Below, one piece after another: positions 15,335-19,417 of a stretch of DNA of 62,752 bases. The translations under genes and the position numbers were made by a program. The stretch is from Comamonadaceae bacterium (GTDB lineage: Bacteria > Pseudomonadota > Gammaproteobacteria > Burkholderiales > Burkholderiaceae_C), in the NCBI GenBank assembly GCA_947447985.1, contig CANFLX010000014.1, positions 1-62,752 on the forward strand. The letters run 5' to 3'. The notes below the pieces were generated by a model. That model saw only the letters and a list, made by a program, of their open reading frames with translations, searched no databases and was not told where the DNA came from. Numbering within the stretch: position 1 is the first letter of the stretch; each line of letters opens with the position of its first letter.

Positions 15335-16012
15335 ATGAAAATTTTGTTGGTTGAAGACGGGCCGGGAATCGCCGAGTTCGTGATCCACGGCTTGACCGCA
15401 CAAGGGTACGAAGTTGAGCACGTGCTCGACGGAGAGCAAGGGCTCAAAAAAGCGCGCGAGCCGGCGTTTGAACTCATTATTCTGGATGGAATGCTGCCGG
15501 GTCTGGACGGCCTTGACGTGCTGAAGCAGTTGCGCCTGGACGGCGTGAAAACGCCCGTGATCATGCTCAGCGCCCGAACGGACCTTCCCAACCGACTTCT
15601 GGGATTTGAATCGGGTGCCGACGACTACCTTCCCAAGCCCTTTTTTATTGAAGAGTTGGTGGCGCGCATCAAGGTGCTGATGGGCCGACGCACGCCCGCC
15701 AGCGCACAGGTGTTGCAGGTGGGCGAACTCAGTTTGAATCTGGTCAGCCGCAGGGTGTTCTGGCAGGAAGTAAGTGCCAGTCTCAGCCCGCGGGAGTTCA
15801 GTTTGCTGGAATATTTGATGCAGTCGCCAGGGCAGATTTTTTCACGCAAAAAGATACTGGCCCATGTCTGGCAAATTGATTTTGATCCCGAAACCAATGT
15901 GGTGGATGTTTGTATTCAGCGTCTTAAGCGAAAGCTCAGCCGCACCACCAACGAGAGTGCGCTGCCGATTGAATCGGTCAGGGGTGTTGGCTACCGCATC
16001 CGGGCCGATTGA
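15335..16012 (+). CDS. OmpR/PhoB-family response regulator (QseB/TctD-like)
   Basis: A 225-residue DNA-binding regulator. The receiver domain (1-120) has the acidic pocket VEDG at 6-9, phospho-acceptor Asp51 in LIILDGMLPG and Lys101 in YLPKPF; a linker leads to a winged-helix domain with SLSPREFSLLEYLM and VDVCIQRLKRKL, ending in the standard RGVGYRI. It is directly followed by the cognate-looking kinase at 16018. Base composition of the pair is noticeably more AT-rich than neighbours, suggesting acquisition by transfer. Repeated TTACA/TGTAA palindromes at 17475-17547 are candidate targets. Signal and regulon are unknown. Confidence 0.9.
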   Translation: MKILLVEDGPGIAEFVIHGLTAQGYEVEHVLDGEQGLKKAREPAFELIILDGMLPGLDGLDVLKQLRLDGVKTPVIMLSARTDLPNRLLGFESGADDYLPKPFFIEELVARIKVLMGRRTPASAQVLQVGELSLNLVSRRVFWQEVSASLSPREFSLLEYLMQSPGQIFSRKKILAHVWQIDFDPETNVVDVCIQRLKRKLSRTTNESALPIESVRGVGYRIRAD

Positions 16013-16017
16013 CCAGC

Positions 16018-17463
16018 ATGCGAAGCTCCCTTCGGTTTCAAATTATCTTTCGCCTATTGTTGGCGATGTTCATCGTCATTTTTGCGAACCGGTACTTGGC
16101 GAAATTTTTGGTGGCGGGTGAAATCTACTCCACCACGGGCCGAGAAATGAAGCTAGGGGTGCAGTCGTGCTCACGATTCCTGAACCCCCTGAACGCCCTG
16201 AACGCCCTGAACGCACGAACTGATTTTTTAGAGTGCTATGAGGTCCTGAACAAGAACAGTTTGACCTCGCACATGGCTGACACCATGGTGATTTGCGGTC
16301 CCGACGGGCATGGCTTATTTCCGGCCGATGACGATGTGTGTTCAGGGACCAGCCGTGGAACGACCACGTGGTTTGACGACAACCCAACGCCACATTGGAT
16401 GAGTGCGTTCACGCCCACATTTGTGATGCGAGCTTGGTTGAGGTCCTACTATTCCGGGTTCGAATGGATGGGGGTCAAGGAACAGTCTGCCAACGGGCAT
16501 CCCGCAATGTTGGTACGGACCCGAGAAATAGAAGGATTTTTGGATGCCATCTGGCAAATCAGAGACAACCATTTGATCTATGTTCTGCCCACCATTTTTT
16601 TGCTCATTGGTTTCGTGGGATTTTGGTTGATCAGAGCTGTCTTAGAACCCGTCAAGCACCTTGAGAGCTCGTTTCAATCACTCACGCCCGAATCCTTGGC
16701 CGCAGGCAAAGAAGTCCGGGCGCAATACCGCGAATTTGAAACCATCATTGGGCTGTACAAAGACATGTGCGTGCGCCTTGATGAGAGTTTTCATCGGGTC
16801 AAGAGCTTTACCAGCCATGCCTCCCATGAGTTGAAAACACCGCTCACCATTTTGCGAGGCACTGCGGAAAGGCTGATCACAGAATTGCCGACGGGCAGCG
16901 ATGTACAAATTATGGCCGGCAGCGTCGCTGGTGAGGTCGAGCGTCTGATTTCTATCAGTGACCAACTGTTACTGCTATCGCGCGCAGACGCCAATGCACT
17001 GGTGCTGCAACGCCAGGATTTTCACCTGAGCGATTTTTTGGATGAACTGGCCGATGATGCTGTGGTGTTCGAGAAAAGTCTGACCATCCACAAGAACATT
17101 GCGCCTGGGGTGGTCTGGCACTGCGATTCAGTATTGGCCAAACAACTGATTCACAATCTCTACACCAACGCCGTTAAATACAACGTGCCCCGTGGGCGTA
17201 TCGAATTCAAACTCCGCCGGCACCAGGACAGTTTTGAATTACGCATCATCAATTCCAGTGCCGGGGTTTCGCGCGAACTCTCTGAACGCGCTTTTGATCG
17301 CTTTTACCGCGGAGACGCATCGCGCGCCCGGTCCGTGGACGGCCTGGGTCTGGGTCTGAGCATTTGCCTTGAAATTGCCAAGGCCCACCACGGAAAATTA
17401 ACCTTTGCGTGGGACGACGCGAGCCGTGTCACCCTCACACTCAGGGCTCCAACGCATTTTTGA
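16018..17463 (+). CDS. Sensor histidine kinase with cysteine-bearing periplasmic loop
   Basis: A 481-residue membrane kinase. TM1 spans about residues 8-28 and TM2 about 188-208, enclosing a ~160-residue periplasmic loop with four cysteines (QSCS, LECY, VICG, DVCS), possibly two disulfides. Then come a short HAMP-like linker, the HisKA box SHASHELKTPLT with phospho-His270, the N box NLYTNAVKYN and the G box DGLGLGLSI. ATG 16018 is chosen; a TTG at 16009 that overlaps the regulator stop is an alternative. The loop contains three consecutive Leu-Asn-Ala units from a 9-base tandem repeat near 16190-16212. The sensed ligand is unknown. Confidence 0.9.
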   Translation: MRSSLRFQIIFRLLLAMFIVIFANRYLAKFLVAGEIYSTTGREMKLGVQSCSRFLNPLNALNALNARTDFLECYEVLNKNSLTSHMADTMVICGPDGHGLFPADDDVCSGTSRGTTTWFDDNPTPHWMSAFTPTFVMRAWLRSYYSGFEWMGVKEQSANGHPAMLVRTREIEGFLDAIWQIRDNHLIYVLPTIFLLIGFVGFWLIRAVLEPVKHLESSFQSLTPESLAAGKEVRAQYREFETIIGLYKDMCVRLDESFHRVKSFTSHASHELKTPLTILRGTAERLITELPTGSDVQIMAGSVAGEVERLISISDQLLLLSRADANALVLQRQDFHLSDFLDELADDAVVFEKSLTIHKNIAPGVVWHCDSVLAKQLIHNLYTNAVKYNVPRGRIEFKLRRHQDSFELRIINSSAGVSRELSERAFDRFYRGDASRARSVDGLGLGLSICLEIAKAHHGKLTFAWDDASRVTLTLRAPTHF

Positions 17464-17474
17464 CGGATTTTTTG

Positions 17475-17547
17475 ATTACAAACTTGTAATTTATTTGGCC
17501 AAATGGATTACAAAACAGTGAGACTATTTCGAATTACACAGATGTAA
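17475..17547. promoter_or_regulatory. Cluster of TTACA/TGTAA palindromes (candidate operators)
   Basis: The AT-rich gap between kinase and TerB-like gene holds a perfect 7-2-7 palindrome ATTACAAACTTGTAAT (17475-17490), a 10-base palindrome TTTGGCCAAA (17494-17503), a further ATTACAAA half-site at 17507, 32 bases after the first, and a 5-4-5 palindrome TTACA-CAGA-TGTAA (17534-17547). The last ends 34 bases before the TerB-like start. Repeated half-sites fit binding of a dimeric regulator such as the adjacent OmpR-type protein; this link is inference. Confidence 0.55.
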
Positions 17548-17581
17548 CAAAAAATTTGAAAACGGGCGGTATCGTGCCTGC

Positions 17582-19417
17582 ATGAGCACCACCCTGCACG
17601 ATGAAGACACGCACCATTTGGTGCGCGACCGTACTGCATTAACGGCACAGCAGAAGCTGGAGGCGATCGCCCTGACGCCTCCGATGGTGCAGGCTGCGGC
17701 GCTGATGTACATCATGCTCGCCAATGGTGAAGTGGCTGCAGTGCCCGGCGGGCCTGGTTCTCCATCGCGGCCCAAGATGTCCCCACTGCTCCAAACTGTG
17801 CGGGATTACGTCGACGGCATTCCCTTCGAGCGCTTCTTGCAAGACGGCCCCCCCATCCTGAGTGTCAAAGAGCGCCTGGGCGTATTGGTCAACACCTATG
17901 ACGCGATGCTGTTGGGCGGAGAACCCCATGAGGCCGAGCGTGCACGCTTTGACAAGCTGACGGTGGCTTTCGGGATCAAACCAGAGGCACTCGAGACCTT
18001 CCGCCAAGCCCTTTTTGTAAAAAATAACCGGGCGGCATTGGGCAAGTTTGACAGCAAGAATCTTGACGTTAACGCCCCTAGCCCCCACGTCGGGCTCGCG
18101 GCGGCATTGGTACACGCCATGATGTCTCCGGATGGCTCGATTCACCCAGAGGACGTCAGCCGGCTGGAAAACGTGATTGGTGAGTACGATGGGCTGGTTC
18201 AATTCGCTCTGAACGAAGCGGCGTCAGTCAAGCCGGAACGCTTGTTCGAGACCATGTCCAAGGTCATGACGTCGGACCAAAAGCTCTTTGTCCTGACCAA
18301 TGTCCTGGACACCATGCTCAAAGATGGCGAGGTCGAGGCGCCCGAGCGCAAGTCAATCTTTCAGAGCATGCGTTCGGTACTCGGATTTACCGAAAATGCG
18401 ATCAAACCCTTTGTTGCGGCAATCAAGGTTAAATGCGCCAAGTCGGCAGCGTCGCACGACAGGTTTGGCGGCTCCATCATGCGCGGCATACGTGCCAATT
18501 TTGAGAAAAAGCCGATCGGCTTCGCCAAACAACAGGCAGAAGAAGCGGCAGCGCTTGCCGCTGTCAATATGCAAAAGGTCAACCGGGTTGCAATTCCGGA
18601 CCAAGAGCCTGCCCAAGTGGGGGCCGATGGCGTCGTGGTCAGCGCGTCGGCTCAGGGGCCGATACTCGACGGAGCCTCGCAAGACAAGCGCCAGGGCCAC
18701 ACGAAACCAGGCCTCTCCCCCGCCCACGCCCGCACATCGGCTGCCAGCCGCGCCTCCAAGCGCAATGGCTCAGAGCCCAACATGCAGCAGATTGAGGCCC
18801 AGGCCAAACTGACGACTGCACGCCAACAGCTGGATAGCACGCGGGCTATGAATGCAGAAATTCTGGCGCTGCTGGACCAAGCGCAGACACCTGGGACAAA
18901 ACCGGGATCGCGCAAAGCATTGAAAAAACCCGCGAGCCGGCCCGCGAGAGCGCCCGCAGCCATCGCCTCGCTGGGATCGATGGGAGTCCAGGCCGCCAGC
19001 GGCTTTCGCTCTGCTGTAGCTGCTCTACAAGCCACCCAGCGCAGCGGCGATGCAGCGCGGCAGAATCAGAACGACCCACAGCGCACGGTCAGGCCCGCGG
19101 TGCCAGGAAAATCCAACGAAGCCCTGTTGGGCGCGGATTTTTCTGACAACGGCTTTTTGTCGCACTTCGCGCTGCCTGCCGCCTTGGTGCTTTGCCTGAT
19201 GATGATGCCCGGCACCGGGTCGGTGTGGGGTGGTTTGGCGGAACGTGTGTTGATGCAAGCACCCTGCTGGGTGGGCGCGTCCCTGTCAGAGCACCTGCAC
19301 ACGCCAGCAGCAGGCGCCAGCTGCAGGTATTCACCCCGCTTTCGAGCGGCGAATGAGCATGACACCAAACGCTCTGTTTGGGCCCGCCCCGCTGAGGAAA
19401 GTATCAGCGCCCTTTAA
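17582..19417 (+). CDS. Large protein with two TerB-like domains and C-terminal membrane segment
   Basis: A 611-residue protein of unnamed family. Residues ~35-150 and ~170-290 each look like an all-helical TerB-like unit: four similar acidic turns occur at LMYIMLANGEV (41-51), YDAMLLGGEPHEAER (106-120), HAMMSPDGSIHPEDV (178-192) and LDTMLKDGEVEAPER (242-256), the type of loop that binds metal in TerB. A long low-complexity, Ala/Ser/Lys-rich stretch (~300-515, partly coiled-coil) follows, then a hydrophobic segment at ~525-545 and a short tail. No signal peptide is seen. None of the usual ter genes are nearby. It follows the two-component pair by 118 bases behind repeated palindromes. Confidence 0.8.
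   Translation: MSTTLHDEDTHHLVRDRTALTAQQKLEAIALTPPMVQAAALMYIMLANGEVAAVPGGPGSPSRPKMSPLLQTVRDYVDGIPFERFLQDGPPILSVKERLGVLVNTYDAMLLGGEPHEAERARFDKLTVAFGIKPEALETFRQALFVKNNRAALGKFDSKNLDVNAPSPHVGLAAALVHAMMSPDGSIHPEDVSRLENVIGEYDGLVQFALNEAASVKPERLFETMSKVMTSDQKLFVLTNVLDTMLKDGEVEAPERKSIFQSMRSVLGFTENAIKPFVAAIKVKCAKSAASHDRFGGSIMRGIRANFEKKPIGFAKQQAEEAAALAAVNMQKVNRVAIPDQEPAQVGADGVVVSASAQGPILDGASQDKRQGHTKPGLSPAHARTSAASRASKRNGSEPNMQQIEAQAKLTTARQQLDSTRAMNAEILALLDQAQTPGTKPGSRKALKKPASRPARAPAAIASLGSMGVQAASGFRSAVAALQATQRSGDAARQNQNDPQRTVRPAVPGKSNEALLGADFSDNGFLSHFALPAALVLCLMMMPGTGSVWGGLAERVLMQAPCWVGASLSEHLHTPAAGASCRYSPRFRAANEHDTKRSVWARPAEESISAL

Follow-up and report, generated by a model that had tools for sequence, protein, structure and literature searches.

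Two-component pairs of the CusRS, HprRS and CopRS type are the closest described relatives of the signalling genes considered here, and their regulators CusR and HprR have, according to one account, very few targets, which adjoin their own genes (PMC8249747). On the output side, comparison is possible with TerB of ter operons and with DjlA, whose TerB-like domain was called 'of unknown function' in a 2024 paper (PMC11709261). We have analysed a stretch of 62,752 nucleotides, hereafter the window, from a Comamonadaceae bacterium (GenBank assembly GCA_947447985.1, contig CANFLX010000014.1). Three open frames on its plus strand, at 15335-16012, 16009-17463 and 17582-19417, encode a response regulator (RR), a sensor histidine kinase (HK) and a protein with two TerB-like domains (TB). 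A first-pass annotation, made from the sequence alone, had described this trio as a single sensory-response unit; its observation is confirmed here in stronger form than it was stated, and a recurring gene order together with TerB-like relatives of TB support its interpretation, which neither of the two refutations it had set out went against. RR-HK-TB is in our view a real, conserved signalling unit. This is well supported as regards the wiring, which is likely; the signal and the role of TB are proposed below in conditional terms.

Results

The genes of the unit are the following.

15335-16012, plus strand: RR, an OmpR-type response regulator of 225 residues (Pfam Response_reg 86.0 bits, Trans_reg_C 87.1 bits)
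16018-17463, plus strand: HK, a sensor histidine kinase of 481 residues counted from the ATG at 16018 (HisKA and HATPase_c)
17582-19417, plus strand: TB, a membrane-tethered twin-TerB protein of 611 residues

HK probably starts at the ATG at 16018 rather than at the TTG at 16009 because the starts of its relatives align at the former position. Relatives were drawn from the genus of the window (g1), from a sister genus (g81) and from one further family. Sensors scoring at least 150 bits against alignment A3 were counted in 84 g81 genomes, which gave 22, and in 103 g1 genomes, which gave 13 in only 12 genomes. In g81, TB lies directly downstream of 15 sensors, is absent from one locus (G260 C1), and six sensors stand at a contig end; in g1 it follows 11 and is absent twice (G486 C7, G469 C173). 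The three-gene order thus recurs at 26 of the 29 sensors with a testable context, a figure to be read with the fact that 16 of the 29 had built the search model and were picked for having TB, so that the fair value, with these excluded, is 10 of 13. Six g1 loci, the window included, carry the unit between yaaA and valS, which indicates that it is old there. In the sister genus the association is found elsewhere on the chromosome, and in a locus of the other family (G708) TB and RR-HK are divergent. Correlations of 0.85-0.91 between the RR, HK and TB distances (19 loci) may reflect ancestry only. A universal pairing of close kinases with TB was considered and dropped, since three testable copies lack TB, as do all five sibling systems examined (117-140 bits).

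The 118-bp gap between HK and TB contains the elements that we consider to connect the two-component pair with TB.

17476-17489: operator box 1, TTACAAACTTGTAA
17508-17521: operator box 2, degenerate, with one mismatch to TTACN6GTAA; present in relative L058 too
17534-17547: operator box 3, TTACACAGATGTAA; its first base lies 48 bp ahead of the TB start codon, at the expected -35 place
17570-17575, plus strand: -10-like TATCGT, six bases before the TB ATG

The repeated palindromes seen before TB in the first-pass annotation thus comprise two exact copies of TTACAN4TGTAA (17476 and 17534), which occurs nowhere else in the window, and a third copy with one mismatch at 17508. Among 20,000 dinucleotide shuffles of the gap, two contained at least one exact copy and none contained two. 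Upstream regions were readable for 38 TB genes, 24 of which follow the same RR-HK type. All 24 have T[TG]ACN6GT[AC]A within 140 bp of TB, against 0.25 expected by shuffling, although the pattern was counted in the loci from which it had been derived and several of these are near-identical, so that the 24 are not independent. At least two copies are present in 12 of them, and the site starts at -47 to -49 in 20, while only 2 of the other 14 TB genes have it. Three tests lie outside the derivation of the pattern. In the six genomes with full match listings, all 11 site pairs spaced by 26-27 bp (counted by eye) precede RR, TB or a gene for a cysteine-rich protein; the cysteine-rich gene, described below, is itself the second test; and the divergent G708 locus has, between TB and RR-HK, two sites spaced by 27 bp, of which one is imperfect. 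This operator conserved before TB lends further support to the three genes being one unit.

The palindromes form a predicted operator of CusR-like type, and the box agrees by comparison with that published for CusR of Escherichia coli. The position of TATCGT suggests a nearly leaderless TB mRNA, and by eye many relatives have a comparable -10-like element near their start codon. Such an mRNA, with a box covering the -35 region, would fit an RR that activates through contact with RNA polymerase. Searched with the operator, the genome of the window (G000) gave eight places, two in the gap, five inside open frames and one intergenic, and we claim no predicted target beyond the TB gap. The lone intergenic TTACAN4TGTAA (C23:36184, equivalent to L104:2985) lies about 270 bp before an open frame of 831 residues and might be a target or a chance occurrence.

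TB itself is resolved into the following parts.

17639-18046, plus strand: TerB-like domain 1, roughly residues 20-155, with acidic turns 48-50 and 112-119 (models m60eb5083b03f and mb83924237150; turn conservation)
18047-18451, plus strand: TerB-like domain 2, roughly residues 156-290, with acidic turns 184-191 and 248-255
18782-18883, plus strand: conserved helix, residues 401-434, in an otherwise variable linker
19151-19207, plus strand: C-terminal hydrophobic segment, residues 524-542
19208-19414, plus strand: tail past the membrane segment, with Cys562 and Cys581 (C-X18-C)

The two domains are 28% identical to each other (E 2e-4), and in relative L054 the corresponding value reaches 44% over 120 residues (E 1e-33). 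An alignment of 50 proteins, with gaps excluded, bears out the four acidic turns in two domains that had been proposed (G49 in 50/50, E119 in 47/50, D184 in 47/48, E/D191 in 47/48, D/E248 in 46/48 and E/D255 in 48/48), except that the window protein has a degenerate turn 2, with G112 where 39 of the 50 have D. The single C-terminal membrane segment of the earlier description also stands, residues 524-542 being the one hydrophobic segment found. Against the Pfam TerB model (PF05099) TB scores 18.9 bits, below the curated cut-off of 24.4 bits. Its close homologues match weakly (14 of 16, best E 7.6e-5), and all five wider relatives scanned exceed the cut-off at 25.2-52.9 bits, the match falling into two stretches in four of them. 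By its sequence the window TB is a divergent relative of TerB and not a Pfam member in its own right; the scores of its relatives support the TerB-likeness, to which structure comparison points more weakly. A sequence search of solved structures returned only a chance match to an ATP synthase subunit, a Pfam scan found no J domain in TB, and a wider homologue search with profile A1 recovered the identical 16 proteins and nothing further. The tail cysteines are invariant in 16/16 proteins and identically spaced in 11 of 37 wider relatives.

Other contexts were met among these relatives. Six of them (L096, L089, L091, L093, L094 and L095; 556-1047 residues) adjoin a different two-component pair, with a kinase of about 640 residues (a 7TMR-DISM sensor where scanned, in L096) and a regulator about 27-32% like the window RR, so that TerB proteins pair with two unlike sensor systems. 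Three twin-TerB proteins (L078, L079 and L081) end in a CxxCx4C motif instead of a membrane segment. Short single-TerB proteins of 136-145 residues (L070-L076) occur in other genomes of the window's genus, apparently outside a two-component context.

The best NCBIfam models for the pair are the heavy-metal regulator TIGR01387 for RR (208.4 bits, curated cut-off 279.2) and the heavy-metal subfamily TIGR01386 for HK (188.6 bits, cut-off 292.55). The periplasmic sensor of HK carries Cys51, Cys73, Cys93 and Cys108 (codons at 16168, 16234, 16294 and 16339), all invariant in the 16 sensor domains of alignment A3. Within the HK gene, tandem 9-bp repeats at 16179-16214 (CCTGAACGC) insert an ALNALNALNA-like stretch between Cys51 and Cys73 that the remaining aligned sensors do not have. 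In a near relative (L057:4113-5503) the kinase is broken into two open frames, either as a pseudogene or by assembly error. An acid-pocket peculiarity of the window RR was weighed and set aside as ordinary.

In the sister genus, a protein of about 178 residues with CxxCxxCC near its N terminus (L097-L100, L109-L114) is encoded behind the same operator. It was present in 6 of 30 genomes searched; five of the six copies have the operator pair upstream, and the sixth (G551) adjoins a TB gene. A resemblance to YkgJ-like proteins was considered, but the protein matches nothing in Pfam or NCBIfam and we claim no family for it. The matched stretch in G551 contains a stop codon, the gene in G497 is shortened, and in L096 such a gene adjoins TB.

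As had been noted, RR and HK are richer in AT than their surroundings, with a G+C content of 55.8% and 52.6% against 61.4% for the window; the gap before TB has 34.7% and TB 60.3%. The neighbours, named from their translations, are presumably yaaA-like (62.7%) and queF-like (64.5%) genes upstream on the other strand and a valS-like gene (63.9%) downstream.

Discussion

The locus probably encodes a self-contained envelope response to metal or thiol stress with a dedicated, membrane-tethered twin-TerB output. HK would detect a periplasmic insult through its four-cysteine domain, either by thiol oxidation or by binding a soft metal, for example copper, silver or zinc, and, as expected from the family, would phosphorylate the CusR/CopR-like RR. 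RR would bind the tandem palindromes, whose conservation supports their role as operator, and activate a promoter sitting directly on the TB start codon, from which transcription may start leaderless. TB would be the main output; its C-terminal segment would hold it at the inner membrane, both TerB domains presumably lying in the cytoplasm, where the acidic turns may bind divalent cations. Once induced, it could serve there as a membrane-bound buffer for metal, or as a scaffold, guarding the membrane side of the cell. The same RR would additionally control the cysteine-rich protein in the sister genus. The signal suggested jointly by the sensor cysteines, the CusR-like regulator and operator, and the cysteine-rich co-target is a soft metal or an oxidant that reacts with thiols. 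A bolder version, which we regard as doubtful, would have the HK cysteines and, in the genus of the window, the C-X18-C tail of TB respond to one and the same thiol or metal state of the periplasm; TB would be a thiol switch that spans the membrane and sets how much metal its cytoplasmic twin TerB domains carry. If so, one circuit would sense envelope damage and report or buffer it across the membrane, a new TerB-based envelope response without ter genes.

Several observations weigh against the proposed stress response. Three sensors with intact context and all five sibling systems lack TB, and by eye the sibling kinases likewise show the four cysteines, which therefore mark the type of sensor and not the link to TB. 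Both RR and HK remain under the heavy-metal family cut-offs, the operator count and the correlated distances carry the limits given above, and no exact box was found upstream of the window RR, unlike in g81, so that autoregulation is not seen here. TB of the sister genus lacks the tail cysteines, and the 15 g1 genomes searched, G000 included, yielded no copy of the cysteine-rich gene. Finally, the TB-like proteins L078, L079 and L081 have neither a membrane segment nor a kinase nearby, showing that the domain pair has other uses.

TB might instead act mainly as a feedback partner of its own kinase in the membrane, damping or tuning HK rather than serving as a protective effector. Its membrane anchor would suit this function, as would its linkage in every set A locus to a sensor kinase or RR and the occurrence of a TB relative beside the 7TMR-DISM kinase, as judged by neighbourhood in L096. 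There is also a precedent in DjlA, a membrane TerB protein described as acting on the Rcs phosphorelay (PMC11709261). The correlated distances appear to favour such a partnership but follow from common ancestry alone, twin-TerB genes without a nearby kinase exist, as just mentioned, and the cysteine-rich co-target would be left unexplained; we consider this explanation unlikely. That RR-HK and TB are neighbours by shared inheritance in one lineage only, with the signal acting on other genes, can hardly be maintained. Synteny within the genus would by itself hold neighbours together, but the association persists in the sister genus, where the chromosomal location differs, the divergent rearrangement in the other family retains the operator, and the operator precedes all 24 TB genes read behind this kinase, which strongly disfavours it.

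A module for tellurite or oxyanion resistance of the Ter type, or for phage defence, was suggested by the TerB domain and by the contexts named in the first-pass annotation, and is very improbable here. The statement that no ter genes accompany TB holds for TerD (PF02342), the only one tested, which has no match in the whole genome (the control was positive in 2 of 14 genomes). In the PADLOC defence library TB has no match at an E value of 0.01 or better, and RR and HK match weakly only on general receiver and ATPase domains. A scan of viral contigs gave 68 pattern matches, none encoding a relative; together with the constant place between the yaaA and valS sides in six loci of the genus, this argues that the unit is not a mobile island.

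A TerB protein is here conserved as the target of a single signalling pair, and the operator is defined, so that the inducer, regulon and phenotype should become accessible to simple reporter and deletion experiments; the operator also provides a named motif for seeking additional members of the response in these bacteria. The parts are known; we have not seen the RR-HK-TB combination in the literature searched, which did not include the principal survey of the contexts of TerB domains (Anantharaman 2012, PMC4104200).

The pair resembles CusRS, HprRS and CopRS in its OmpR-type regulator and periplasmic-sensor kinase, in the heavy-metal NCBIfam models that score best, and in an operator built on the same palindrome; for CusR of E. 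coli the box is given as AAAATGACAAnnTTGTCATTTT (PMC11195947). As reported for CusR and HprR (PMC8249747), RR seems to have very few targets, beside its own genes. The pair differs in that the predicted target is a TerB membrane protein instead of an efflux pump or an enzyme of periplasmic repair, in the four conserved cysteines of the sensor and in scores below the family cut-offs. With TerB of ter operons, TB shares the acidic turns and perhaps the domain fold, and its relatives pass the Pfam threshold; however, it combines two TerB domains per chain with a long variable linker and a C-terminal anchor, in a genome without TerD. DjlA, as described (PMC11709261), likewise has a single membrane segment, a cytoplasmic TerB-like domain and a link to a phosphorelay. 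Its membrane helix, however, is N-terminal, its TerB-like domain is single and a J domain is present, whereas TB has a C-terminal segment, a pair of TerB domains and no J domain in the Pfam scan.

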